Shown: piece by piece, positions 15,101-39,800 of the stretch | Numbering within the stretch: position 1 is the first letter of the stretch | Layout of the letters: every line of letters begins with the position of its first letter | Made by a program: the position numbers and the translations under genes | NCBI GenBank assembly: GCA_030068145.1 | Contig: JAPJBO010000098.1 | Location: forward strand, 186,001-250,000 | Length of the DNA: 64,000 bases | Source of the DNA: Diplonema papillatum | Taxonomy: Eukaryota; Euglenozoa; Diplonemea; Diplonemida; Diplonemidae | Reading direction: 5' to 3' | The notes under the pieces: model-generated | The model's database searches: none | What the model was told of the DNA's origin: nothing | Seen by the model: only the letters and a program-made list of their open reading frames with translations

Positions 15101-18100
15101 CTGTGCTCTGCGGAGTTTACTTCGCAGATTGCCACCGTAAAAAGAAGACAAGTCAGTCGCCTGACGAACCAGACTCACACCGCAGTCCTGTCTGCAGACA
15201 CTCAGGTTCCACGCTGATGATGGTCCGCCTTATGTGTCCGTGGCTTAAAGGACCGAAACACGGCGCAGACGGGACCAGTGCGGTGTTGAGCACATATCCA
15301 TTCCAAGCACGTTCTTGCAATCCCCCTTTTCGACGCTGTTGACTAACGGTTAGGTCGGACCCTTCCCCGGTGAACATCCCATGAAAGTAACAGTCTTGAC
15401 TCAGGCCGATGCGGGCTACATGGCAACCCCTGCTCAACATGTATGCACGCGGGGGGGCTCAGGGCCACATTCATTGCGAATGTGTTCGCGGTGTCGGCCG
15501 CAGGAGTCTTTTTTGGCTAGCCAAAGAGAGTAAAAGAGTGTACGTACAGTAGTGAGTAGAGAAGAGAACGAGTGTAAAAGAACGGAGGTAGCACGAACTA
15601 CCAGACCGGCGGAGGCCACCGCAAAGAGATTTCTTACCTTTTCCTTATCCCTCAAAACCAGCACCAATAACAACGGCCCCCCCACACCGTTCAAGTGAGA
15701 AAAAGAGAAAGAGTACGTACAGTAGTGAGTAGAGAAGAGAACGAGTGTAGAAGAAGTTGGCGGTGGCACAAACTACCGGGCCAGCGGAGACCACGCAAAA
15801 ATATTTTCTTACTTTTCCTTATCCGTCAAAACCAGCACCAATAGCAACGACCCCACACCGTTCTATGCCAGTTCGTAACAACACCAACCGCGCATCTCAG
15901 GTGCGCGTACGAGCTGCCGCTGCACCCCGTGTGGGTTGTACTTGACGCCCTCACCGACATCCCGCCCATCGTGCGAATCGTGTGCCAGTTCCTGATGCCC
16001 TTCGAGCAGGAGGGGCGCCGGGACATCGTCAGCAGCCGGTTGAAAATCACCGAGAAGTACCTCAAAGGCGGCTTCCTCCTCGACTTCGTGTCCATCCTCC
16101 CACTCGACTTCATCTTCCAGGTATGCGGCTTGCCATGCATAGATGCCGGGGGTGGTCCAACGGGATCCAGCGGACCCCCCCCAATAACGTTTGAGAGTCA
16201 ACTAAACTGTAGCACTCAGAAGGCCTACTGCTGCAGTGATGGTGTGTCTGGTGCGTACGGGAACTCTACTCATGCAATTTCACTTGAAAGAGTGCGGCTT
16301 GCCATGCATAGATGTCAGGGGTTATTCGAGACTGGAGGTCCTGTGAGCATGCAATGTGAATAGCCTCTATTCGAGCCAACCCGGCTTTTCTTCATGAAGA
16401 AAGTGTATTGTTTTTGGATAGCACTGAGCTAGCTTTTTCCCCCCCCCTTGAGAACGAAACCGAACACGAAAACAAACAACGCGCCAAGGAGGGCGATGGG
16501 AGGGAGCCTGAGAAACGGCTACCACATCTAAGGATGGCAGCAGGTACGCAAATTGCACAATAGCAACACTGCTGAGGCAGCGAAGAGAAATAGCCTCGAC
16601 ACGTACTTAGTACGTTAGAAGCAATGGATGATATCTAAACCTGTCAATGAACACAATTGGTGGACAAGTTTGGTGCCAGCACCCGCGGTAATTCCAGCAC
16701 CAATAGCGTATATGTTAATGCTGCTGCTGTTAAAAAGCTCGTAGTTGGATCCAGAGCTCAGGTTGCAGAGGCACAAGGAACCACCTCACCTGTTCCCAAG
16801 AACCAGCCTGAGACAGGTATCCACCGTACCGATAACCGATAACCTCCAAAACGTATTTTTTTTTTTAGTTCGGGCCACCAGGGCACCTTACTCCACTCCT
16901 CTGAGGTCCCCTGTTGGGGATGGTTGGGAGACCATACAATCAAGTATGGAGCCATCCTTTACTGCGGAGCAATTTCCGCTAGCAGTACAAGTACTGTGTG
17001 AACTAGAGCTTTCATCTGGGAGTTCATCCCCAAACGCCTGGAGAAGTTGGCCAGCCAGGGAATCGAACCAGCGACCCTCAGGTTATCAATCTGGCGCCCT
17101 GACCGCTATACCAGGTGTGCCCCTGTAACGTACGCTGGTGGCAGGTGGCAGAGCGACGGGCCTACCGGCCTTTAGGCCGGTAGGCCCGGGCTCGAACCCT
17201 GCCCATGACACTTACGTGCGCAATTATTTCTCAAGCTAGTAAAAGGGTGCTGCTTCCCAGGGCAGGTATTCTCATCTTGCAAAGGTGGCCGGTGCTTCCT
17301 CACGGGCCCCGACGCACGCCTGCGTCCTCTCCATCCAACCCTCTGCTTTTCTTCTTTCTCTGTATCCCCTCGTGCTGGCACCGCGAAGCGAGGTCCGTCG
17401 CTGCTAGCGGGCCCAGAAGGGAAATAAAATCAAGCAGGAGTCATATTGCAATCTACACAGGACCCTTGGTGGCGCCTCGTCCGGCTTCTCATGTGGAAGC
17501 GCTGTCAGCACCTGCAAAGTGACTGGGAAAAGGCTGCGAAGGTGAATCCCATGGTATACCGAATGGGAAAGGTTGTGTGCCTTATCCTTCTACCGACGAT
17601 CCATCTGGTGGCTTGCTGGTGGTATGGACACACTTTCTGTTTTAACCACATGCAATGTGAGGAAACTGAACCGCCCGAGTAGGACCTTCTGATCATGAAT
17701 TTGCCAATTTGCCACCTGAAACCACGTCCAGGATGTGGGGTCAGGGTAGGTCAACGAAAACTATAGTTTCCCCCTTCTACTTTCTCCTCGCGGCGTACGG
17801 TTTTTAACCACGCTCAAAGAAGAATGCACATTTCATACTCCACCGGCATATGACAGCTTGCGAGAAGCATCTCCAGAGTAGAGCCCACGTCAAAAATAGT
17901 TTATTTGCTGCTGTGGATGGATGTGCTACGAAACCAGCAGATAATCGCCACAGATTATTTTAAGCCAAACCATCTCTCTATCCACTCCACCCTCTGCAGG
18001 TACATAATAGCTCGCGAGTACAGCGCTGGCGTCCCAGTTACCCCGATTCCTGTCGACTTTGTGGCCCTCGCTACGAATGATGTATGCTGATCACCTTTTT

Positions 18101-18953
18101 CGTTGACACTCATGCACGGCGGGAGCTACATTACTCGATGTGCAGCTGGTGGCTGACCGTGTGTCCAAACGGTCCTGTCAGGGCTTATGGTCCAGGGTTT
18201 GGCTACAAACCACCCACCTAGTAGCCATATCGCCAACCCCTCTCTCCTTTCCTACTTACTTTGATCAAAGGTCACGGCAGGTTTCGGCAGCCGCTGCTCA
18301 CGCACACGTGCTCGCCTGCCTTCATGGCACTTGCACTTTACAGAAGGCAATGCTTAACAACTTGCCGACGAAATGGCAGGTGACGACGTCAGAACGTAAG
18401 CTGACCTACAAGAAAGTGCAGGCCAATCCAGGTGGTTCATGCACTCAAAATAACTCAATGCTTAACAAAAGTGCATGCCAATCCATGTGGTTCATGTACT
18501 CAAAAGAACTTAATGCTTAACAAAAGTGCATGCCAATCCATGTGGTTCATGTATTCAAAAGAACTCAATGCTTAACAAAAGTGCATGCCAATCCATGTGG
18601 TTCATGTACTCAAAAGAACTCAATGCTTAACAAAAGTGCATGCTAATCCATGTGGTTCATGTATTCAAAAGAACTCAATGCTTAACAAAATTTGACGGCG
18701 GCTTTAGATTTACATCTGATTGACACCTCAACACAAAACAAGTTGTCGACAACTACAACAAGTAAAAACAAAACCCAGAACACTACAAAGTCAGACTAGA
18801 GTCAAACTCAACAGGGTCTTTTTTTCCCCGCTGACAGTTTCAAGTCCGTTCCCTTGACTGCTGTTTCGCGAGATAGTAGGTAGGGACAGAAGGAATCTCA
18901 TTGGTCCATTCATGCGCGTCTTTAATTAGACGACGAGGCATTTGGCTACCTTA

Positions 18954-18989
<36 letters not shown>

Positions 18990-21900
18990 ACCCGATCTCT
19001 CAGCTTGACATTCAGGGCACTGGGCAGAAGTCACATTCCACTCGCCACCGCTGTGATGAAAATGCTGTGGTTTAATTAACCAGTTGGATTCCTCTTGTTC
19101 GTAACAGTTCCAAGCTGACACTTCATTGCGGGCACAACATGCAAGAATGCCTGGAAGAAATCAGGAGCCGCGGGTAGCACCCGAGAGCGCCACTCACAGC
19201 ACCTTCAATCTGAGCCCAGACCTGACCCGCACTGGCAATCCCGCATGTGTCCTCAGAGCCAATCCTTTTCCCGAAGTTACGGATCCAGTTCGCCGACTTC
19301 CCTTACCTACATTGTTCTGTCGGCCAGAGGCTTTTAGCCTAGTAGTAGAACCAGGACTCGAAGGTACAGACACTAAGGTAGTCGTCGGATATCCGATTCG
19401 GACAGATGACGAATGCCTTATTTTCCGACAGCGCCACTCCTAGGAAGGACCTGAACTTGTTGGTCGTTTCCCAGCAACACGGAGAGAGGGAAAGGAAGAG
19501 AAACGCTGCGACAAAGGTCATCCCAGACCCCAAGCAGCCCCAAAAACAGAGAAATCCTGCGAGAAAGGTCTTTCCAGACCCCAAGCAGCCCCAGAACAGA
19601 GGAACCGTGGAACTACTCAACGCCCGGTTCACAATGATCGACCAAAGGAGCGCGAACAAAAGAGGCCACAAAAAGAAAAACCCAGAGCACAAACACGTAA
19701 ACGCCGCCAAGAAAAATCGGAAGAACGACCACGTGACTCTGAGGCAAAAAAACAAAACCAAAAAAACAAGAAAAGAGCAAAAACACGCGCCAACAGAAAA
19801 GAACGGCGAAAACAAAAAACAAAACGGCCCAAATCTGACACTCGATTCCTCGCCGCTTTTGTCCACACCCGCCGCCACCCTGACGACGGCGACGACGATC
19901 ACGGAAGTCGAAGAAGAAGCGCGATCGAAAACTTCTGGAAGCGATACGGCACGAAGGTGTCAAATGGACGGAACAAGTGCGGGACCGACCGAAGCGACGT
20001 CGCCGACAGCACGACCGGAGTGATCTACGTGCTTCTGAACGAAGGGGGCACCGTCCTCTACGTGGGTCAGACGTCGAAGACGGCCGAGATGCGAAACAGC
20101 AAGCACTGGGAAAATCGGAACTCCAAGGGCAACCGTGTGTCGCAACAATTGCGAAAGCGAGGCCGAAAGCTCTACGCGTGTCCGATACAGAATGTTCCGG
20201 AACGGCTGTACGTACAGCCCGCTGACTTCGCGCGCGTTGCTCTCCCTATCGAAGATTTCTGGATCAAGTGGCTAAACCCGCCCTTGAACATGACGAATCG
20301 GCGCCACGGAGAGAGGGTCAACCGCAAGGCTGCAAAGAAGAAGAAGAGGCAACGTCCACCGCAACGCCTCCGCAAACGACGCACCGACGGCAACGTCTGG
20401 CACCGCATGGTAAACGGTGAACTCCACATTGACACCTCCCCGGGCTTCTGTTCTGGGTTGAGGAAACAATTGGACCACCTGCTGACACTCCCACAGGACC
20501 GGTTGGGAACATACGACATGGCAACATGGCACCCCAATCGTGCCCTACGCCTCCGCACGTGGCTGAGAACCTTCGTTCGAGGAAAGGACGTAACGGAAAA
20601 AGTACGTACCCTCGAGCGGCTCCTCAGTACGCGCATTCGCAACAGAACCGAGAAGCCGGCAGCCCCCCCACGACGATATTTTAAGCTGACACACCATCAC
20701 CCGGCACAAGACCGAACAGCAATAGCCGGCGTCTTGTCACGCGCACGGGTTCGCGAAACATGCCCCAACCCGGCCGTCCTCAAAAACCTCATGGTGAGCA
20801 ACCGACTGAAGCCACCTCTGGTAACCCTCGTCAGCAACGTCACCGAAGTAAGTTACGAAGCGAACCAACCGACTAGCTCAAGCTCGGTTTGTCCATGCAT
20901 GCAGCATCTAACACCACACCGCGCGGACCTTGGTGGACACGCTTTAGGACTTGCAACGGACCTGACGACGAGCCCTCCTTTCGCTCTTTCGGAAAGGACG
21001 CAAGTACCGAGTCGCGAGTAGCCCGATGACGATGTACGACTCGATAAGGCACGACGTCGAGGAATTCGTGAACTCGAACTTCCCGAAATCGAGCGAGGAG
21101 GAGAAGACCAGATTCACAACGACTCTGGTCGAAGAGTTCGACGCCGTCCTTGGAACGCTCAACGCACACACCGACGAACCTCAACTCCGAGACGCCATAC
21201 GAACCCTGAAAAAGCTCCAGGAGCACCTCGTATTTCTCCCTGTTGATAAGACGTCCCATGACTTTGGGTTTATCTGCAAGGAAAAGTACAAGGAACTTTT
21301 ACGGAGCGAGTTACAAGAGAGCTCAACGTACCAGGAAGTTGGCGAGTCGATTGAAGACGTGCTCAAACGACACCATGACTTCAACAAGTCACATCAATTC
21401 ACACACACCAACATCCTACCGTACCTTTACGGCATCCCGAAACTCCATAAACCCGAGCCACGGATGCGGTACATTGCCGGCGTGTCGGAGAAAGGGAACA
21501 TTGAGAAGAAAAACGAACAGAAGGACCGAGACGAAAAAGGCCGCGACAAGAAACGAGTGAAGACACGTGCATCAACTACCCCTGCCCACCAAGAAGCCTC
21601 CGGTTTGCTGAAGCTCGTTCTAGCCACGCTCCGAAGCAAGGACGAAGCGACGTTTTCGCAAACGGGGATACGTCGTTTCTTCGTCGTCGAGTCGGTCGAT
21701 GACGTAGCAGTGCACGTAAAGACGAACTACGCACGACTTTGCAAAAAGACGCCACGAACTTTCGATTTCAAAGAAATGTAACTGGTCGAATTCATTGTCG
21801 GTAACACCTTCGTCACGAACGGCGGAAAGTGCTACCAGCAGGTCACAGGAATCCCCATGGGCGGCAATGCAAGCCCGGACCTCGCCAACCTATACTGCTA

Positions 21901-24900
21901 CTGGTGCGAAAAGCAGTACATCGACGGCCTGGTCGCAAACGGATTGCAAGAAGAAGCCAGGAATCACGCCGACAGCGTCAGATTCATTGATGACTTCTTG
22001 ACCTGGGGCGTTCGACCACCGCCGGAATCTGTCTACGGCATGGAGTACGGAGAAACATCGAAAGGTGTCGACGACGTAGTCTTTTTGGGGATGCGGATCC
22101 GGATGGAGAGGGATACCAAAACGGACTTCATTCGGATGTCCGTCCTGGACAAGGGTGAGGAATTCCCCTGGTATCCGATCAAGTACACGCACGTCGAATC
22201 AACGGTACCACGGAACACCGGAACCTCGATCTTCAAAGGCGCTCTGATTCGAGCAGCGCGCATATGTAACAATATGCCAGATCTGAAAGTCGAGATCATG
22301 AAGGTCCACTACCGACTCCGCAACCGTGGATTCTCTGGACGGGAACTCCGACACACGTTCGACGCGTTCGTTGCGCAGACGTACGGGAAGTACGAACTGG
22401 ATGCGCGAGTGCTATCACGGTTCTACCACTTCGTCGGAAAGGCCTTTGACGAAGGACGCTCGACCAACGAAGAGAAACCGTACATCAGCATCCGTTCACC
22501 GCAACCACCCGATGTTTCACCGAGACCTCCACCCGGGAGAACCTCGCCGCAGAAAACGTCGCCACACAAACCCGAACCCACCAGCACTACGCACCTTGCG
22601 ACGAAGCCAACAAACCCACCTGGACGCAACGGCATAAGGAACATCCGCAACTCATGTTTCTTTGCCGCCAGCGTTCAGTTCCTGGCGCGAAGGACCTCCT
22701 TCCGACTGCAGCTCGCAGGCCTTTCGCACCCGAACACCAACCAGTTGAAGGTGCAGCAGCTGTTCACGGATTTCGACGCAGGCCGTGACATCCACGGAAC
22801 AATGGCCACACTACGAAGCCTTGTCTTCGACACGACGACAGACGACTCCGCGCAGCGGGACGTGCACGAACTGTTGACGTGGATACGCTCTTGCGTAACG
22901 GACGACGACGACGACCAAGCGACGGTGACATACTCCCGACTGACAACGTGTACAACATGCGAAGAGTCTTCACGAGCACTGCCGGCGTCAGAACCGTTCC
23001 TGATGGTTGAACTCAAAAACAGGGAGAAGCCCTACACCGAGTCAGTAGAGGATCTGATAAAGAAAGTGAAAAACAAGAGAGCAACCAAAGTGGACGACTT
23101 CCCCTGTAGCACGACCACAAAAGGACCGTTGGACTCACGAAGGAGTATTACACATTTCCAAACCAAATGGATGTAGTACTGCAACGAGCACAGCTGTCGA
23201 AAAAAACACGCGAAGACATCAAAATACCAGCCCGCACCCCGATCCGACCAACCATTCTGATCGGGGAAGACTCCTACACGGTAAATGGCTTCATCATCCA
23301 CACCGGAAGAGCGACGGCGGGTCATTACTATACCGTGCTAAAGGAAAATGACGAATGGGTGTGCTTCGACGACCAGCAGGTATTCGTACTCTCATGGGAG
23401 GAATGTGCCAGAAGATTCACAACGAATGGCTACATCATCTCTCTCGAGAAAGCGTAAACACTTTCACCTGGTGGAAGTAGTGCCCCGTGGCGGTTGGTTA
23501 CGAGCCACAACACACTTTGAAAACCCCCTTTTTTTAAAGAAGAACGGACGAAGGAAGGAGGAAGTGGAACCATACCGTATGGTTTCAAACCACGGAGTCC
23601 TGGACTCCTTTCCCACACTTTTTCTGCGAAGCAGACGCACAAAGGGACGGTGCCACAGCATGATTCGGCAGCCGCTGCTAAACGTAGTGCATGCTAATCC
23701 ATGTGGTTCATGTACTTAAAAGAACTCAATGCTAAACGAACATCGACGTGGGCGGCATAGAGAAAGAAGAACTACTCTACGGCACCAGAAAGTCCAAAAA
23801 ACCATGGTAAAGAAAGTAGAAGGAGAAAAAAGAAGTTGTCGACAACGACAGAAAGAAAAGAATAGAAAATAAGACTCTGCATTCCGCGAAGAAGACTTGA
23901 TGCTAGCATCAAACACATGAGAGGCAAGTAGCGCCTGAACACGAAACTAAGATTTTCCCCCCCAGCTACTCTACGGCACCCAAAGAAAGTAGAAGGAGAA
24001 AAAAGAAGTTGTCGACAACGAAAGAAAGAAAAGAACAAAAAATAAGACTCTGCATTCCGCGAAGAAGACTTGATACTAGCATCAAACACATGAGAGGCAA
24101 GTAGCGCCTGAACACGAAACTAAGAGTTTCCCCCCGTGCATAAGATGGATAGCCAAACCCCCTTGATTAAGATGGATAACAGGCGAGAATGCCAATCCAT
24201 CTTAAACACGGGGATGAGGTACCCCTGTGCAAAGTGACTACACTGTAGTCTACAGTGCCCCCGTGTTTAAGATGGATACCCAGATGGATACTGCCAAAAC
24301 CCGAGTTTTTCATCCATCTTATGCACGGGGGAGGGTAGGTACGGTATATCTCTAAAACTACGCATCTCTTCCCCAGACGCTATCGGATGATGAGGTCGCC
24401 GACACGCTGGGCGGTCTGTACGAGGGCCTCGACAGCAACAGCACCGAGGGGTACAGCCGGTACGCCAAGAATTACGTCTCGTCGCTCTACTTCTCGCTCG
24501 TGTTCCTCGTCGGCTACAACGCGGGGATTCCGCGCAACGGCGCGCAGGGCCTCTTCAGCGTCATCGTCGTGTTCCTCGGGGCCAGCGTTTTCGCGTTGAT
24601 CATCGGTTACGTCGGGTTTATCCTGCGTGAGTTGGACAACACGCAGCAGACCTTCCGCGACAAGGTCGACCAAGTAGTCCGCTTCATGCGGTATACGGAG
24701 CTGCCGAAAAAAACCGTCACCAACGTCCTCCACTTCTACAAGCACATGTGGGAGTCCCGGCGTGGCCTTGAAAAACTCAACGTCATGGACGGCATCCCGC
24801 AGTCGCTGCACCGCGAGCTGCTAGCGTACCTCCACAAAGACTTCGTCTCGAAGGTGCCGCTGTTCAAAGGTGCGCCTTCGTTCGTTTTGTTGGGTAACGT

Positions 24901-26593
24901 GCCTTAGGGGACTAGTCCCAATTTCACATTGGGACAAGTCCCCTAGGCACCTTACCCTTCTTTGTTTTAGCACCTGCTTTGTATGAAATGCTTGAGGAGA
25001 CTCCAGCTGCGAAAGATCAAAGGAGGTAAACGTGCTGTAGCCCACACAAAACACAGGTGAATCCGCGTTCAACAAAAAAGACCCACAAACTTACTGGTCA
25101 AAATCTTGACAAATACTACGTTTGAATGTACCGCCACCAGTAACAATGGCTAGGAATTCTGCTTACTGGTCTGTCTGCGCCTTTTGAGTTCGCTGACGTA
25201 CAGTCTGCGGAATACTTCTTGGTGACATGACTGCAAGAAAGAACGAAGAGGAATCAAACCATCCAGGGAAAACCCATCACCTACATTGCGTGGGGGCAAG
25301 ATGTAAATACCCGTCCAGGGGACTTACGGAAATAAGCTTGTCTGGACAAGGTCACAGGGGGAAGGGAGGGTGGGGTTTCTTCCCGTCCAACGACACCCCC
25401 CCCAACCACCTGGTTCTTGGGTGGCTTGACGACTGCGCCGCAGCATTCCCGCAGTGAGACTGTAATGCATTAGTACCATTGACTTGTAGTAGGGTGGAAC
25501 CTTCATCAAAAGGGGCAAAATATAGCTTTCCTCGATAGAGCGTGGGGATTCAAGACGATTCCCAGTAGTATAGCTACGCCATACGTTTGATCACACCTCG
25601 GAACACCAACGCAGGCTGCGATGAGTTCTTTCTGGAAGAAGTGTCGTGCTGCTTGCAATATGTCGCCGTGCTGCCCGGGTATCATGTCCTACGCAAAGGG
25701 GAGATCGGAAAGGAGATGTTCTTCATACACAGGGGGCAGGTCGACGTTGTGTCGGAAGACAACAGCATCGTTTTCGCCTCCCTGAGCGAGGGCAACTTCT
25801 TCGGGGAAGTTGCCCTCGTCGTGCCGGGGGCCAAGCGGACGGCCAGCATCGTCTGCAAGACGTTCACCGAGCTCTTCGTCCTGAACAAGGTCTGCCGCCT
25901 TTATCACGGAAGTGTCCCCCGCGCTTCTAGACTCTCTGCGGCCTCACCACGGCTACCCAGAGGCGACTCCTTTCGGCTCCCTCGGTCTCGGCAGTCTCAG
26001 ATTCTTGCTCGGGATGACGTCCAGACTCGCAGCGATGCTACACGACAGGGCTGAAGTCTGAGGAACAAGCCCTCAAACCCATGTAGCGGACACGACCACG
26101 TCGCTTGGGCAATGCACGCGAGACGAAAGGCGAAGAACGGGTGGAAGAACGATGGAAGCGAGCGACCAAAACATTTCCGAAACCGTGGTCTTTTGACACG
26201 GGTAACCGAAGACAAACGGGCCGCCAGCGATGGTGCGAACGTTGAAGCAAGCGATCTTTTCGTGCGCTGGGGGGCGCAAGCCTCACGCCAGTGTTTTTAG
26301 CCTTTTTGCTTTGCGAAGAATAGAACAAATATATCAAGATATAAGAGCTACGACCCAACTACTTTTTCACCCTACGCGAAGAAGAGAACAACACTTGTTT
26401 TACAGCAACTTTTGTCAAGAGCTACGACCCAACTACCACTTAACCCTGTGAACACGATACCAAGATCCCACCCCAACGTCCCGACACGTTCCCACAGACC
26501 GACTTTGAACGCCTGTTGGACAGCTATCCAGAGACGCGCAAAGAGATCTTGCAAGTAGCAGTGGAGCGAGGCTTGATCGGGCAACAAAAGTGA
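11907..26593 (+). CDS. Cyclic-nucleotide-gated / HCN-like cation channel, seven-exon gene (520 aa)
   Basis: Joined exons are 11907-12142, 15901-16120, 17461-17621, 18000-18081, 24377-24869, 25615-25889 and 26498-26593: 1563 nt, 520 codons plus TGA, with every splice phase agreeing. Order: basic N-terminus; S1 (about 56-79); S2 and S2-S3 (about 84-135); S3 (LLDFVSILPLDFIFQ); short S4 (WWRLVRLLMWKR); S5 (VVCLILLPTIHLVACWW); turret; pore helix and filter VGYNAG (278-283); S6; C-linker (LDNTQQTFRDKVDQVV onward); cyclic-nucleotide-binding domain (about 398-515) with FGE at 460-462 and RTAS from 472. Family knowledge: tetrameric plasma-membrane or ciliary channels opened by cAMP/cGMP and modulated by voltage. 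The filter is neither GYGD (potassium) nor the GET of animal CNG channels, so selectivity cannot be predicted. The phosphate-cassette FGE and Arg are kept, so ligand binding is plausible. The start is the first ATG of exon 1; an upstream exon is possible. Confidence 0.87.
12143..12424 (+). repeat. Short degenerate tandem repeat in intron 1
   Basis: Between about 12,215 and 12,370 a unit of about 30-38 bases (GGATGGGACACTTC plus an A-rich spacer) repeats five times with drift. Confidence 0.5.
12425..12682 (+). pseudogene. Decayed duplicate of channel exon 1
   Basis: It matches 11,885-12,130 closely, including the ATG context, but lacks the splice donor and has a 7-base insertion (ATGGTCA) at 12,629-12,635 that breaks the frame in S1. 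The insertion completes a perfect 13-base-arm palindrome (12,629-12,657), whereas exon 1 has only the 6-base imperfect version. Confidence 0.8.
12722..13894 (+). repeat. 76-bp satellite array, about 15 units, in channel intron 1
   Basis: The unit starts CACCGTTCTATGCCAGTTCT and ends ACAAGTGTTATCAAAAGCCG. Unit starts are at 12,722, 12,805 and 12,881, then every 76 bases to 13,869. The thirteen units from 12,881 appear identical; the first two differ by small indels and the last is cut after 26 bases. Perfect identity implies very recent expansion or ongoing homogenisation. One stray half unit is at 15,855. Confidence 0.9.
14013..15330 (+). repeat. Cluster of four family A copies, three in a tandem 327/349-bp arrangement
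   Basis: From 14,487 the family A right half is followed by a linker (TACTTCGCGTAACGCGACTT..., then a 58-bp CACTGTGCTCTGCGGAG unit). The composite repeats at 14,501, 14,828 and 15,177. The 58-bp unit also closes the 76-bp satellite at 13,896-13,952, so the satellite and the composite repeat share parts. Confidence 0.75.
15353..15540 (+). repeat. Family C copy, intact paralogue of the LINE insertion site
   Basis: The sequence is continuous across TGCTCAACAT where the copy at 34,378/38,195 is split by the LINE. It therefore serves as an empty-site reference for that insertion. Confidence 0.75.
15537..15865 (+). repeat. Tandem duplication of about 174 bp in channel intron 1
   Basis: The words GTACGTACAGTAGTGAGTAG and CTTATCC(C/G)TCAAAACCAGCA occur at about 15,540/15,650 and again at about 15,713/15,815, followed each time by CACACCGTTC. 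Confidence 0.6.
15901..16120 (+). CDS. Channel exon 2 (S2, S2-S3 loop, S3)
   Basis: The acceptor is GCATCTCAG at 15,892-15,900 and the donor CAG|GTATGC at 16,121. It encodes LHPVWVVLDALTDIPPIV, then SRLKITEKYLKGGFLLDF and VSILPLDFIFQ. The last block matches the S3 signature of CNG/HCN/EAG channels. It ends in phase 0. Confidence 0.85.
16125..16425 (+). repeat. Intron repeat (family G) with a partner at 63,108-63,205
   Basis: GCGGCTTGCCATGCATAGATG occurs at about 16,124 and 16,300. The stretch 16,328-16,420 (TTCGAGACTGGAGGTCCT... TGTATTG) recurs at 63,108-63,205. Confidence 0.6.
16501..16750 (+). rRNA. 18S rRNA fragment, probable pseudogene, in channel intron 2
   Basis: It starts GAGCCTGAGAAACGGCTACC and ends AAAGCTCGTAGTTGGAT, with the universal CCGCGGTAATTCCAGC near the end. 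The spacing (about 250 bases) matches the collinear region of eukaryotic 18S. Flanks are unrelated DNA, so it is a 5'- and 3'-truncated insert. A second short piece of the same region is at 53,531-53,583. Confidence 0.8.
17048..17123 (-). tRNA. tRNA-like sequence (degenerate; anticodon position GAT)
   Basis: The reverse strand has a good A box (TGGTATAGCGG) and a perfect B box (GGTTCGATTCC), the internal RNA polymerase III promoter elements. The anticodon loop reads TTGATAA (GAT, Ile), but the anticodon stem has mismatches and the acceptor and T stems pair poorly. It is more likely a tRNA pseudogene or SINE head than a working tRNA. Confidence 0.4.
17128..17212 (+). repeat. tRNA-like SINE head with a long hairpin
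   Basis: It has A-box-like GTGGCAGAGCGAC and B-box-like GGGCTCGAACCC, but between them lies a perfect hairpin with 13-base arms (GGGCCTACCGGCC / GGCCGGTAGGCCC) and a TTTA loop in place of an anticodon arm. A related copy is at about 63,250-63,320. Confidence 0.5.
17461..17621 (+). CDS. Channel exon 3 (S4 and S5)
   Basis: The acceptor is CTACACAG at 17,453-17,460 and the donor TG|GTATGG at 17,622. S4 is short, with Arg/Lys at WWRLVRLLMWKR. S5 is VVCLILLPTIHLVACWW. It ends in phase 2 and joins exon 4 to complete a Trp codon. A dispersed repeat (ACATGCAATGTGAGGAAACT; also at about 31,073 and 50,790) starts about 25 bases after the donor. Confidence 0.8.
18000..18081 (+). CDS. Channel exon 4 (82-nt exon, turret)
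   Basis: A pyrimidine-rich tract and CCTCTGCAG precede 18,000; GAT|GTATGC follows 18,081. It starts by completing Trp and reads YIIAREYSAGVPVTPIPV then DFVALATND, ending in phase 0 as exon 5 requires. Without this small exon, exons 3 and 5 do not join in frame. Confidence 0.75.
18308..18690 (+). repeat. LINE-type 3' tail followed by a 55-bp tandem array
   Basis: GCTCGCCTGCCTTCATGGCA at 18,312 is the tail word also seen at the 3' end of the LINE (38,037), and at about 49,120 and 56,680. From 18,416 a 55-bp unit (GTGCATGCCAATCCATGTGG ... CTCAATGCTTAACAAAA) repeats five times at exactly 55-base spacing. A single unit is at 23,688-23,740, so the same unit lies on both sides of the Penelope-like element. 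Confidence 0.75.
18787..19342 (-). rRNA. 28S rRNA fragment, probable pseudogene, reverse strand, in channel intron 4
   Basis: The reverse strand reads through conserved 28S landmarks in the right order: ACAATGTAGGTAAGGGAAGT, GGATTGGCTCTGAGGAC, ATTTCTGCCCAGTG-type words, GCGGGTAAACGGCGGGAGTA, TTAAGGTAGCCAAATGCC and AAGACCCTGTTGAG. Compared with the near-universal ATGACTCTCTTAAGG it lacks two bases (ATGACTCTTAAGG), exactly where several rDNA-specific retroelements and homing enzymes cut. The Penelope-like element begins immediately beyond its 5' side. A second, diverged piece is at 51,534-51,694. Confidence 0.85.
19444..21021 (+). pseudogene. Penelope-like element, basic region and GIY-YIG endonuclease
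   Basis: The frame is open from 19,444 to the TAG at 21,019-21,021. Its first part is very Lys/Arg/Gln-rich and contains a duplicated block (CDKGHPRPQAAP / CEKGLSRPQAAP), probably nucleic-acid binding. GVIYVLLNEGG and VLYVGQT (20,014-20,073) are the GIY and YIG motifs. Downstream Arg and the EDFWIKWLNPPLN block (about 20,250-20,290) fit the rest of a GIY-YIG fold. The ATG at 19,957 is internal to this frame, so the true start is probably further upstream. The coding signal passes to another frame near 20,950-20,965. Confidence 0.75.
20966..23176 (+). pseudogene. Penelope-like reverse transcriptase plus first part of a USP-like protease
   Basis: It starts in-frame at FRKGRKYRV (about 20,987), the usual opening of this RT type. 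YGIPKLHKPEPRMRYIAG (from about 21,430) is a hallmark of Penelope-like RTs. Motif A is RTFDFKEM, directly followed by the TAA at 21,779. Motif B (QQVTGIPMGGNASPDLANLY) follows only about 20 residues later, so the usual stretch of about 50 residues between A and B is missing: an internal deletion as well as a stop. Motif C is RFIDDFL (about 21,980-22,000). After the thumb and a Pro/Thr linker comes the Cys box GIRNIRNSCFFAASVQFL, with Cys at 22,655-22,657, and a CTTCEES zinc-knuckle-like site (about 22,950). Confidence 0.75.
23110..23457 (+). pseudogene. C-terminal half of the USP-like domain (His/Asp boxes), +/-1 frame from the RT
   Basis: The frame opens after a TAG at 23,107 and continues the upstream protein after a frameshift: EYYTFPNQMDVVLQR, then YTVNGFIIHTGRATAGHYY and WVCFDDQQV. 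These match the second signature of ubiquitin-specific proteases (Y-x-L-x-G-x3-H-x-G-x4-GHY) and the Asp box, so Cys, His and Asp of the triad are all present across the two frames. It ends with TAA at 23,455. Confidence 0.75.
23759..24131 (+). repeat. Family B repeat, two tandem copies
   Basis: The unit contains two perfect palindromes (GTTGTCGACAAC and TGATGCTAGCATCA) and always ends AAACTAAGA(T/G)TTTCCCCCC. Copies: 23,759-23,960, 23,962-24,131, 34,205-34,374, 40,541-40,692, with partial copies at 33,946-34,060 and 57,078-57,131. Confidence 0.75.
24131..24331. mobile_element. 201-bp MITE-like fold-back element with nested inverted repeats
   Basis: Perfect 20-base terminal inverted repeats CCCCCGTGCATAAGATGGAT (24,131-24,150) and its complement (24,312-24,331) enclose a second inverted pair (24,195-24,213 and 24,258-24,277, GTGTTTAAGATGGAT type). 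A centre hairpin CACTGTAG-T-CTACAGTG follows. No clear target duplication is visible. It ends 45 bases before channel exon 5. Confidence 0.8.
24377..24869 (+). CDS. Channel exon 5 (pore, S6, C-linker)
   Basis: The acceptor is TTCCCCAG at 24,369-24,376 and the donor AAAG|GTGCGC at 24,870; it ends in phase 1. It encodes the pore helix (YVSSLYFSLVFL), filter VGYNAGIP, S6 (VIVVFLGASVFALIIGYVG) and the C-linker through KDFVSKVPLFK. It is bracketed by fold-back structures at 24,131-24,331 and 24,893-24,956. Confidence 0.88.
24893..24956. repeat. 64-bp fold-back hairpin just after channel exon 5
   Basis: Arms of about 29 bases pair with three or four mismatches (GTGCCTTAGGGGACT... / ...AGTCCCCTAGGCAC) around a TTCAC loop. 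It starts 24 bases into the intron. Confidence 0.75.
24965..25080 (+). repeat. Family E repeat, copy in channel intron 5
   Basis: The words AGCACCTGCTTTGTA, GATCAAAGGAGGTAAA and CACAGGTGAATC recur in three copies at 59,340-60,000. The rest of the intron to 25,614 shows nothing further. Confidence 0.65.
25615..25889 (+). CDS. Channel exon 6 (cyclic-nucleotide-binding domain)
   Basis: The acceptor is CAACGCAG at 25,607-25,614; it enters in phase 1 and leaves in phase 0 at AAG|GTCTGC. It encodes LPGYHVLRKGEIGKEMFFIH, then the phosphate-binding cassette GNFFGEVALVVPGAKRTAS and TFTELFVLNK. FGE and the Arg that contact the cyclic nucleotide in this family are present. Confidence 0.88.
26498..26593 (+). 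CDS. Channel exon 7 (C-terminal helix, stop)
   Basis: The acceptor is TCCCACAG at 26,490-26,497. The 31 codons read TDFERLLDSYPETRKEIL and end GLIGQQK then TGA. The (T/D)DFxxLLxxYPExR pattern is what normally follows FVLNK in CNG-domain channels, which confirms the splice. Confidence 0.85.
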   Translation, partial: TDFERLLDSYPETRKEILQVAVERGLIGQQK

Positions 26594-33863: not shown

Positions 33864-36800
33864 GTATATAAAGCCCCCCCCCCCCCCCCCCCCCCCCCCT
33901 GCGACCCTTTTCCCTTTCCCCTATTTTATTTTACACTTTCTTCGACGAAGACTTGATGCTAGCATCAAACATGCATGCGAGGCAGTACTCTGCCTAAACA
34001 TTAAACTAAGTTTTTCCCCCCCCCCGGTTACTACTCTACGGCACCAGAAAGTTCAAAAATAATAGGCGCGATGTTTGTTTGTACGTGCCGGGGGAGGATT
34101 AGCCTGTTAGTGAGTGATAGTGAGTGAATATGATTGGTAGGCTAAACTTCTCCCAAACACGCTGCCAGCGTTCTCTTTCGTGTTTACAATTAATTGTTAT
34201 TACGAAAAAACCATGGTAAAGAAAGTAGAAGGAGAAAAAAGAAGTTGTCGACAACGAAAGAAAGAAAAGAACAGAAAATAAGACTCTGCATTCCGCGAAG
34301 AAGACTTGATGCTAGCATCAAACACATGAGAGGCAAGTAGCGCCTGAACACGAAACTAAGATTTTCCCCCCGGTAAAGTCCCCGGTGAACATCCCATCAA
34401 AGTAACAGCGTTGACTCAGGCCGATACGGGCTACATGGCAACCCCTGCTCAACATCGATCCTACAAGGAGCAGCCGGAGCCGCTTTACAACCTCTTAGCC
34501 TACCGCTTCAAGAGCTACATCCACCGGCAGCCGATGGAGGTGGAGGAGATAACGGGCGCAGACCTGCGTGCCCTGTTGATGAAAAAGAGTGCCAAAGGGG
34601 CGTGTGGAGTAGACGGGTGGAGAATGGCAGAGCTGAAGGCGTTGCCTGACCCGATGCTGGACGCCCTCGCGGTGCTGTTGAATCTGGTTGAGAGGACCGG
34701 CGAATGGCCACGGGCACTGCAAACAGCCCTGGTCACCATGACGCCGAAAGGTGACGACAACGACCCGGTGAAGATGAGACCGATCACGGTGACCTCCTGT
34801 GTTTACCGTCTCTGGGCCTGTCGACGGCTCAAAGACATAGTGGCCAACACGGATTCCGCCCTGGCCACCGCGGAGAAGACCCTCTGATGACGATGGCGAT
34901 GGAGATCGAGTATGCCCTGTTAAGCGGAGACCCGCTCTACGGGCTCTCCCTTGACTTCTCGAAGTGCTTCGACCGCGTGCCGCACGAGCTGACGATGCGC
35001 CTGATGCAGGAACTCGGGCTGCATGAACGAATTATGACGCCACTGCGGGGAATATACGGGGTGCTCGTAAGGCGTTTCAAACTGCCGCTGGGAGTCGGGG
35101 ACGAGTTCGAGGTGACGAACGGGATCCTCCAGGGCTGCCCGATCTCAGTCATCCTCATCAACGCGTTGCTCTCCATCCCAATGAAGGCGGTGAAGGCAGA
35201 AGCACCCGGATTGCTCACTGAATCGTACGCGGATGATGCGAATCTGATGACGAGGATCTCGGAAGCAGCCCTCCAGAAGGGAGTCGACGTAGTAGACGAG
35301 TTCTGCCGGCTCACCGGCATGGCGTTGAACATGGACAAGACGTTTGTGTTCACGACCGTCCGTGATTACGTGTCGCGACTTCAGCTCCGGAGCACGGGGA
35401 GGAAGTTTCCCCAGGCGACAGCGCTAAAATGCCTTGGGGCCAAACTGAGCACCTCACGGAAGGGGCGCGACCACAACGACACGGCCAGGCTCGAGACCGC
35501 CACCAGCACCGCCCACAACCTACGTCACGTCCCGATTCCGCAACCGAGCAGAGTGCTCTTAGTACAATCCGCGATCCTCCCAGCCGCGCTGGCGAGAGTA
35601 CCCTTCGCCCCAACGACCAAGGAATCCGTTGAGAAGCTGACGACCGGAGTCATGTCGGCGGTATGGGGGACGAAGAACCCGAAGCGAGCACCCGAGGCAG
35701 TTCTGGGAATCCTCGAGAAGGCGCATCTGACGGATCCGGCGACCCGGATGGCCTACAGCATAACGGGGCAATTCTACACCGCATGCCAGAGACTCCCGCA
35801 CCTCGTACCACAAGCAGCAAAGATACGGGAGATGTACGGGCCCCGCGTGACGGCGGCGCTGGGACCCGTAGGAATCGCTGTGAAGTACGGACTGGAGCCG
35901 TGCGGTCACGACTGGGCAGGCGGCCCCCTCGACGATGTAAAACGAAACGGTGAACCGTACTTGCCATTGGGCAAGTCCCCAGCAGAGCGGAACCACGATA
36001 TCCGCTCCGACCTGAAGACGCGGCTGCGGGCGAGACTCGTCGCGAGGCGCGGCAGTTATGCCGGCATCGCCGACGTCGACCTTGACGCCACCAACGCGCT
36101 GTGGAAATCGCGGGCCTGCCCACCCCAGACCGCGCGGCTCATCAGAGTGGCGATCGCCGGAGGCGTCAACACGGCGCAGCACACTTCGCGGATGCATCAG
36201 GGAGGTGACCCCGCATGTACGAGCTGCGGCAACGGGAGCGTCGAGGACGAGGCGCACATCTTCTGGCGGTGCGGTGCCTACACCCCGATCCGCGCGAAAG
36301 CAGAGTACGCGGCGATCGTAGCCGCGGAAAAGAGGGACTGGCCCAGGTGCCTCCTCGAGCACGGAATTGCTACGACGCGCACGAGAGATCTGGTCGGGCC
36401 GGTTCAATCCCTCATGGCGGAGATCCTGGCAGAACGTGCGAGGCACGTCAACCAAGAATGGAAGGACCGCAAAGCGAGAACTCCGTGGGAGCTTTGCGGG
36501 CAGAATCCGGTGCGAAGGTACGATTTCCCGTATCAGCGGATCGCCCCGGCTTGGGCGTGGTTACGGTACTGGGACGAACGGACCTTCCTCGCCCTCGTGG
36601 ACTGGCTCGCGGGACTTGAGTGGTCATCGACCGGCGACGTAGCATCGGTTGAGCTCGCTGTCGACTTCGAGTTGTATTCCGGCTTGGACGTACGGCTGCC
36701 CAAGAAGGAGGCGAAAACGCTTCGCGAGAAAGCGAACGGCATGCGATGCATGATCAGTGCCGTCATGAAGCTGGCGGCCCAGCAAGAGCTCGGCGGCTGC

Positions 36801-39800
36801 CTGCCCGGATCGATAAAGGCGGTGACCACGGCACTGTCCTTTATTGGACTGCCCAGCCTGCCGGGCCTGGAACCCAGACCCCGACACCGGATGCCCGCTA
36901 CAGGAGGAATCGTCCAGGAACAGTTGAAGGGGAACGGAGCCTACGACAATGGGCCCGTGTACAACGACGAACGACGCGCGAGGGCAGGCCGGTGGCCCGC
37001 CCCCCAGAGACCTGCCGCAAACCCGGACCCCGTCCATTTTCTGGGCGCGGTGGTCGACAAGAGGAACGCGACGAAGTGCGTCGCGCACTACAAGGGGAAG
37101 TGTGAGGTCTGCCGCCGCCTCGGAGACAAACAGGGGCCCACCGTGCAGGCGTGCTGTCGGCACCACCACGCCGCCGACGACGGGCTACCCATCGCGATCT
37201 GCGACCGACACCGAATGTCCAGGTGCGCGGTCTGCAACACGCCGAAGACGTGCTGTGCCGCAGGGCACCACGGGTGCCGCGAACACAACCGCGGCCCGTG
37301 CGAAGGGTGCCGCCAGCTGCCGACGCTCGCAGAGCGACGACCCGCCGCGTGCTGCGGCAAAGGGCACCACAGTGCCGACGAACCGAAGGCTACGAAGCCC
37401 GCCGCACCACCCAACACGAACACGCCGGCGCCCGCGGCCACGCCGCGCTCGCCTGCGGCTGAGCAACTGTCCGAGTCGCCCAGGAAGGGGCGGAAGCGTA
37501 TCCTGCAGGAGACCCCGCGACCGACCACCCACCGGGGGCCGAAGCGCCCGGCCAAGAAGGCAGCGACGCGGCAACGCACGCGAACGGCGCGGTGCCTCAC
37601 CAGCTCACCAACCTCCCCGCCTTCATCACCGTCATCATCACCGTCGCCCAAGACGTCATCAACGGGGAACATCATCCCCATACAAACAACCCTTCCGCGC
37701 ACGCCAACCGGCGAGCCCAAAGACGCGCCTCCCAGAAGGAGGCGGAAGCGACCCCTGCAGGAGTCCTCGAAGCTCGCATCCCCGACAGGGAAGCCACGAA
37801 GATCGAAGCGATCGCGGCAGGCCGTGAACAACTCTACGCTCGATCACGAAATGGAATGCCTAACTTCTTCCCCATCGTCGACCCGGAAACAGCCAAACCG
37901 GCCCGGAAAGTCCGCACCGCGAAAGCGAGCGGGAATTGAACTTGACTTGGAAATGGCTAGTTTGACCACATCCTCATCATCGTTGACTCTCCCGACGGAC
38001 GACGTCATAAAGTAACGCTAGCCCGTGTACAGTGCTCGCCTGCCTTGATGGCACTTGCACCTTAAAGAACTCAATGCTCAACATGCATGCACGTGGGGGG
38101 CCCAGGGCCACATTCATTGCGAATGTGTTCGTGGTGTCGGTCGCAGGAGTTCCTTTTTTTTTTTGGCTAGCCAAAGAGAGTAAAAGAGTGAAAGAGTACT
38201 TGCTGTGAGAATGCATGGGAAAGTCAGGTAATAATGGATTATTACCTGGTAATAATATCTAATAATGGGTAATAATTTCTAATAATCAGGTAATAATATC
38301 TAATAATTTCAGGAACCAGGTAATAACATCTAATAATTTCTAATAAAATCTATTAATTTGGGGCGGATTTCGGAAATCTAATAATAGGTAATAATCGTGA
38401 TTATCTGCCAACCGTGATTATTGTAGATTATTGTACATTCTTGTACATTATTGTAAATTATTGTAAATTATTGTACAGTACTGAGCCAATTCACCTACCC
38501 CCCCTGAAAGCGACTTGAGCTCGATTACACTCGATTACGCGTCGATTACACTCGATTACACTCGATTACGATCGATTACAATCGATCAGCTTTTGGTGAA
38601 TTGGGGGGGTACTGTAACAATTGATTAAACACACAGCACTCAGCCAATCCTGATTAGCCGATGCAACGTGTCTATTATCGAGCTTTCTTCTGGGGCTAAA
38701 GATGCTGATGGCACGATCATCGAATATCGAACAAAAAGAAGCATATTCGTCTGAAAAAAGGATGTATCCAGGCAGTGCAGCAGGGGACGAGGAAGTTCGG
38801 ACTGACTTGTGGAAGCAGGTTGTCGAGTGCATAGGGGCTCGGGTACCCGTTTTCCCGTATTAGCAACCTTTGCAATTTAGCGCAGCTAATACTCGAGCCT
38901 TTTGGCATTCCCTGCGGGGCAGTTCCAGGCGATAGGGCACCCTGTCCTCGAAGATGTCAAGTTTCTGTTTGTGGGTTCGATCTCCCTGGCGACAACAAGG
39001 CGGTTGAAGGCGGAGGCTAATCTCACCTTTAGGCACTGCAATGTCACGCATGCCATTGTCAGACGCCCTCGTGGGATTGACAAGGGGGTTCAGTGGACAC
39101 TCATCTGTTGGCTCCTCGTTACTGCCCACGTAGGTTCCGGGAGGTCTGCTTGGCTGCACGCGGCTTGTGGTGTTGCTTCGTTCTTGAACTTTTTCTTCGG
39201 CTTCATGCGGTTCATCGTCCCGGCCTGCCCCTGGTACACGACTCGTCTCGTCTCCGTAGCTCGTCTATCCTGCTTCACTTCGTGCTTCCATCGAGCCTAC
39301 TTGCGCTGTCACATTCCGATGGGTAGTGCGTCTGCGGGAGGAACCTGCCGTTATTGTGGCTGACACACCCTGTCCCTGCGGCCTTCATCGCTGTCTGCTC
39401 TCGTGCGGCCACTGTGGGGCATGATTCCGCCTCGGATCCTCGGTTGTGCTCCTTAGCTGGATCGCTAGCTCGATAAGAAGAGCTGGTGTGTGGGCACAAG
39501 CGAATGTGGTTGCGGTTGCGGGCCGGCCGGCGTGACTGCGAGCAGACAGGCTGCATGCGCGTGGGCCCAATCGCGCCATTCACGCGGTACTCCAAAGGCC
39601 TAATCGGGCCGGGCCGGCACATACAGATTGCGACCGGGGCCAGCGTCGCACCTCGGTCTCGTCCCTTACAGCCGGAGCACGTGGCTCTCCCCAAGCCTCT
39701 GGGAAGGTGGCGGAGCTGGGAAGACGCGAGAGAAAACCAAAGTAGCGGCGGCCGACCTCTGTCTGCAAGCACGTCTCTGGCAGGGCAGTCGGCACCAAAC

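Follow-up and report, generated by a model that had tools for sequence, protein, structure and literature searches.

The window, a 64,000-nucleotide stretch of the genome of the free-living diplonemid Diplonema papillatum, contains the remains of a retroelement at 19356..24135 on the forward strand. It is almost certainly one, now decayed, of many copies of a Penelope-like element (PLE) with an N-terminal GIY-YIG endonuclease and a single polyprotein that ends in a compact ubiquitin-specific protease (USP). The copy was assigned to subfamily A of what is called family I here by its identity to an intact copy (L031), which was 99.6-99.7% across 19356-21780 and 21780-23684, and 97.9% between window positions 23539-23962 and the L031 pseudo-LTR (pLTR). 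The window copy is a pseudogene: compared with L031 it is truncated at the 5′ end, starting only at 19356, its reading frame is broken by shifts near 20.96 kb and near 23.1 kb, and 179 nt of the reverse transcriptase (RT) are absent at 21780/21781, next to a stop.

All features of the copy are on the + strand. N-terminal to the RT, a GIY-YIG endonuclease domain is encoded at 20017..20280 (PF01541, E 1.7e-5, 25.5 bits versus a cut-off of 22.6), which had been absent from the sequence-only reading of this DNA and is added here. Between endonuclease and RT lies a CxC motif (CPC; 20890..20898) that is kept in four intact copies (L031-L034) and in a distant relative (P0009). The first part of the RT (20966..21781) reaches motif A (FDFKEM; 21761-21778) and ends in a stop at the site of the missing 179 nt; the second (21782..22483) contains GIPMGGNASPD (21848-21880) and FIDDF (21983-21997). 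A Pro/Thr-rich linker, recognized by its sequence (22484..22630), leads to the USP (peptidase C19) domain (22631..23454), the frame of which is closed by a stop codon at 23455-23457. The right pLTR (23539-23962) and a further partial repeat of its end (23982-24135) occupy 23539..24135. Tandem 55-bp units matching the pLTR (18358..18745, +; 83-86% identity to L031 251-327) may or may not belong to the insertion.

Between the 55-bp units and the element, an antisense piece of 28S rRNA (18840-19319, - strand; Rfam LSU_rRNA_eukarya, E 8.9e-99; about 18790-19343 by eye) adjoins the truncated 5′ end at 19356. Some 3,600 scattered 28S pieces have been described in this genome (PMC10161547), and the fragment is not supported as a part of the element, as no LSU match at E ≤ 1 was obtained in copies L031-L035. 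Downstream, 25569-26051 matched cNMP_binding (E 9.9e-14) and 24356-24904 matched Ion_trans_2 below the cut-off (E 5e-4); no family was matched by 15845-16360. The element is flanked by pieces of what is likely a cyclic-nucleotide-gated channel gene and may therefore have come to rest in an intron, a location reported for transposable elements of D. papillatum (PMC10161547). Inverted repeats at 24131-24331 (20-nt arms, 100% complementary) and 24889-24963 (a long hairpin) are perhaps small mobile repeats, and another retroelement frame is present at 34755-38012 (+; RVT_1, E 6.6e-19; zf-RVT matched weakly, below its cut-off).

Intact copies and class of the element

The sequence-only reading had proposed a USP-like domain fused to a retroelement and had named its signature boxes. 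These were located where it had placed them: GIRNIRNSC at 22631-22657 (Cys codon 22655-22657), the first zinc pair CTTC at 22949-22960, GHYY at 23320-23331, and FDDQQV at 23365-23382. When the two frames were searched separately, the first matched the UCH profile (PF00443) at 22622-23130 with E 4.4e-4 and 20.4 bits, under the 23.9-bit cut-off, and the second at 23134-23454 with E 1.7e-10 and 41.4 bits, over it. The frameshift near 23.1 kb removes the second zinc Cys pair from the window copy (C163 is lost).

When the 271-Mb assembly was searched with the translation of 21782-23130, in which the USP starts near residue 284, at least 95 family I matches were scored (94 of 1,409 candidates). Ninety of these 95 extended to query residue 403 or beyond, that is, into the USP, so the RT does not mainly occur without this region; the five that stopped short were on C1725, C1796, C30, C187:30215 and one of two C234 pieces. 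Thirty-five of the 95 matches fell in open frames of 1,400 aa or more. By identity, the matches clustered near 100, 90, 77 and 74%, and one intact copy per group was read (L031, 1,491 aa; L032, 1,513; L033, 1,458; L034, 1,448). In all four, a single frame encoded GIY-YIG, the CxC motif, motifs A to C of the RT, and the USP, which bears out the proposed fusion and rules out that the USP is a separate gene beside the element. The UCH match was over the cut-off in each (58.7-66.5 bits versus 23.9) and covered nearly the whole profile (E 9e-16 to 3.8e-18), which excludes a chance resemblance of motifs.

GIY-YIG exceeded the Pfam cut-off in three of the four copies (L033 reached 21.4 bits versus 22.6). 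Because Pfam RVT_1 gave matches only below the cut-off, and in only two of the four, the RT was called by its motifs and by aligning it with P0009, a protein of 22% identity that consists of an N-terminal GIY-YIG, a CxC motif (CEC) and an RT, without USP. Among solved structures the RT had no match at E ≤ 0.1, and NCBIfam returned weak matches, all below the cut-off. The RT contains a long stretch between RYIAGVS and motif A, for which no usable structure was obtained.

The assignment to PLEs draws on architecture and motifs rather than on an RT phylogeny. PLEs, canonical Penelope/Poseidon elements among them, are described as single ORFs encoding a telomerase-like RT and a GIY-YIG endonuclease, with pLTRs and tandem copies (PMC11167929). 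The present elements, whose RT is putatively telomerase-like, fit this description, with flanking repeats (pLTRs) in L031 and L033, and exact head-to-tail units in L034 (period 5,726 nt) and L035 (period 5,850 nt), with three units in C510, although such exact arrays could partly reflect assembly. The identical arrays, together with near-identical full-length copies, point to recent spread. In contrast to canonical Penelope/Poseidon elements, in which the endonuclease is C-terminal and for which the portion of the source available describes no USP (PMC11167929), the endonuclease is N-terminal to the RT in the window copy and in the copies read of family I and of family II (below).

A hammerhead ribozyme in the pLTR, as in canonical clades, was not supported: Rfam gave no match in L031-L035, nor in 501 bases of L033 at E ≤ 10, and closing stems were not found. 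Half a hammerhead core (CUGANGA, a 5-bp stem and GAAA) is present in the pLTRs of L033 and L034, at reverse-strand positions 340 and 6096 of the former and 2323 and 8049 of the latter, and is conserved in these two subfamilies. The left pLTR of L033 begins two bases ahead of this core. Elements of the Naiad/Chlamys clade reportedly have an N-terminal GIY-YIG endonuclease, a CxC motif between endonuclease and RT, and an insertion-in-fingers domain in the RT. The N-terminal endonuclease and CxC motif of the present elements would fit what is said of this clade, to which an RT C-terminal to the endonuclease, pLTRs with tandem copies, and the lack of an Rfam hammerhead are also attributed. For Chlamys, the endonuclease is said to be without CxxC, as is that of the elements described here; P0009 has CxxC. 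What differs from the clade is the USP after the RT and the diplonemid host.

Conservation and origin of the USP

A profile of the endonuclease-RT core listed 17 proteins, nine of family I and eight (P0013-P0020; family II) at 31-35% identity. Two of the eight, P0013 and P0015, had precomputed UCH domains, and hmmscan placed the USP C-terminal to the RT in both (5.1e-23 and 1.3e-20, respectively), which also contain CPC as the CxC motif. P0014 was not taken as a USP-less relative, since its gene model starts a USP and then skips to the tail. Beyond the USP, P0013 and P0015 end in a Cys/His-rich tail (CxxC...H...C) that may be a zinc finger. Searching the genome with P0013 yielded at least 31 matches (31 of 1,258 candidates scored), of which 14 were full-length at 100% identity, with frames of 1,562 or 1,570 aa; 13 were without the N-terminal part but extended to the end, and four, at 68% identity, had frames of 1,590 aa. 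The two copies read from DNA (L036 and L039) encode the UCH domain (82.2 and 72.6 bits) in the same frame as GIY-YIG, which was over the cut-off in one of them and below it in L039 (20.0 bits). Families I and II share 34-41% identity in GIY-YIG, 35-37% from CxC through the RT, and 22-23% in the USP.

In the best 30 of the 95 family I matches, the catalytic Cys, His and Asp were complete in 29, the exception being the truncated L010; all four zinc Cys were present in 27 (exceptions: the window copy, L010 and L011). In the window copy the triad is distributed over two frames, and two aligned pieces had to be joined at four of the loci (L001, L009, L028 and L030). C10, the HE box, C108/C111, C160/C163, H233 and D248/D249 were invariant across the four family I subfamilies, and the triad and zinc Cys pairs were also invariant in both family II USPs. 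By sequence, the closest solved structures were USP21, USP28/25 and USP15, then USP36. With these cellular enzymes and USP12/46 the domain shares the Cys box, the (Q/R)D(A/V)HE box, the zinc Cys pairs, and the His and Asp boxes; it differs in its size of about 277 aa and in its fusion to an endonuclease-RT polyprotein. Of the two Cys boxes, GNTCF (family II) is closer to the canonical form than RNSCFF (family I). An AlphaFold model was unusable (mean pLDDT 38.5) and says nothing on the fold of the USP.

Selection was estimated from Nei-Gojobori counts on natural frames between pairs of family I subfamilies, where many dS values exceeded 1 and the ratios are rough. For the USP, dN/dS was 0.249 in the closest pair (A-B), near the 0.305 of the linker in that pair, and 0.096-0.150 in the five other pairs. 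The RT ranged between 0.059 and 0.111, GIY-YIG between 0.031 and 0.092, the basic N-terminal region between 0.259 and 0.370, and the linker, highest among the regions C-terminal to the endonuclease, between 0.162 and 0.352. In family II (L036 versus L039), where dS was near-saturated, the ratios were 0.154 for the USP, 0.079 for the RT and 0.207 for the linker. Purifying selection acts on the USP, though less strictly than on the RT. That it is a captured host fragment and a functionless passenger is most improbable: PLEs can transduce host DNA (PMC6431247), and the window copy itself is broken, but both families have retained the domain at dN/dS values far under 1, and the triad is intact in 29 of the 30 loci inspected.

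A PF00443 search of the genome gave at least 149 scored loci (935 candidates; 0 of 14 named genomes in the control), a total that is low since family I copies were not seen among them. A compact family II footprint, with profile positions 1 or 2 to 240 matched over 774-801 nt, was found at 112 of the 149, 34 scored above the retroelement type, and three were counted as other fragments. Seventeen of the 34 high scorers were fetched (16 as host USPs, and one on C9), as were three of the 112 compact loci, whose domain was read completely. A tree of 26 USPs recovered each of the two families as a clade with 100/100 support and a long stem. The best tree kept the two clades apart; forcing them together was not rejected (p-AU 0.234). 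The domain may have been acquired once or twice.

When a profile of the USP alone was searched at E ≤ 1e-5, no free-standing relative was detected among 3,715 candidates (proteins of ∼152-483 aa sharing short words). An exception came from outside this search: the gene at L056 302-2407 (+; C9:544500-548300) encodes, in a 702-aa frame, a metallo-beta-lactamase domain (3.2e-8) and a USP (6.5e-32) that is the sister of the family II USPs in the tree. This gene may represent the donor or a recipient of the domain, or another mobile gene. In four scans of viral contigs, no relatives were confirmed.

Proposed role of the predicted deubiquitinase

The fusion, the conserved triad and the selection together predict a working deubiquitinase that serves the element; peptidase activity, substrate and effect on retrotransposition are what we infer from sequence. 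Since the USP is tied to the polymerase, the element's own complex would be its simplest target, with chromatin or repair factors at the nick next, and silencing factors possible. The USP would stay within the ribonucleoprotein, acting in cis, and would strip ubiquitin off the element's own endonuclease-RT protein and close partners. Spared from the proteasome in this way, that protein might last through target-primed reverse transcription. Viruses offer a precedent, with deubiquitinases whose target or fusion partner is the viral polymerase (the tymovirus PRO/DUB and the nairovirus L protein). The position of the USP, at the C-terminus in each of two families whose RTs share 35-37% identity, counts for this reading; counting against it are the faster evolution of the USP relative to the RT and the less canonical Cys box of family I. 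Action in cis on the element's own complex is put forward tentatively. The identity of the element combined with deubiquitination in cis is the best overall explanation, to which we give an even chance.

The USP might instead work at the insertion site, where deubiquitination of histones, PCNA or repair factors would allow the endonuclease nick to become an insertion. Tethered to the endonuclease-RT it would travel to the target, and the same idea has been proposed for the OTU/Ulp1 domains of Ginger transposases (PMC2836005); no sequence feature points to histones or PCNA, however, and this role is possible but rather doubtful. Action in trans on host silencing factors, in RNA interference or chromatin silencing (the sequence-only reading had also considered host silencing factors), is unlikely. 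The RNAi components encoded by D. papillatum (PMC10161547) and the faster evolution of linker and USP relative to the RT speak for it; against it, an arms race is not indicated by dN/dS values well under 1, and no host target is known. The USP follows a flexible linker within a single long polyprotein and might be the maturation protease of that polyprotein, but this is very improbable, because Pfam reported no ubiquitin-like domain there for the USP to cut.

Ubiquitin and SUMO proteases of other families, OTU and Ulp1, are carried by Ginger, Mutator and Helitron/Helentron, all of them DNA transposons (PMC2836005, PMC6431247). A peptidase C19 fusion, that is, a USP-type deubiquitinase on a mobile-element enzyme, has been described in Trichomonas vaginalis, where the partner (transposase_11) is a DNA transposase and not a retroelement protein (PMC2836005). 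Among retroelements, the giant Gypsy-like Burro of planarians bears ubiquitin-system domains, but this LTR element has MATH/TRAF and RING-type domains, and no USP is described for it in the text available (PMC6431247). In the searchable literature, from which subscription papers are largely absent, no retroelement with a USP was found, and the main text of the D. papillatum genome paper contains the words "Penelope" and "ubiquitin" zero times each (PMC10161547, as available). C19 on a DNA transposase is already known (PMC2836005); within that literature, C19 on a retroelement appears to be new. The USP would be a new domain in the PLE repertoire and links a telomerase-related class of retroelements to the ubiquitin system.

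To us it is an evenly balanced question whether diplonemid PLEs run on an RT-USP polyprotein. In this reading, an active deubiquitinase, maintained by selection in no fewer than two deeply diverged families after one or perhaps two acquisitions, would take part in retrotransposition. If so, retroelements, beside DNA transposons and viruses, would bear their own USP against ubiquitin control. Many intact, near-identical copies exist and gene replacement has been achieved in this host (PMC10161547), which makes the need for an own deubiquitinase directly testable.

The finding also bears on annotation, as NCBI gene models of copies carry host-like names ("ubiquitin carboxyl-terminal hydrolase 26" and "16"). 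Five further NCBI models (P0003, P0006, P0007, P0008 and P0019) join parts of these elements to host-like genes (UNC93-like, dynein intermediate chain, STIP1-like and RRP12), and probably represent chimeric annotation.
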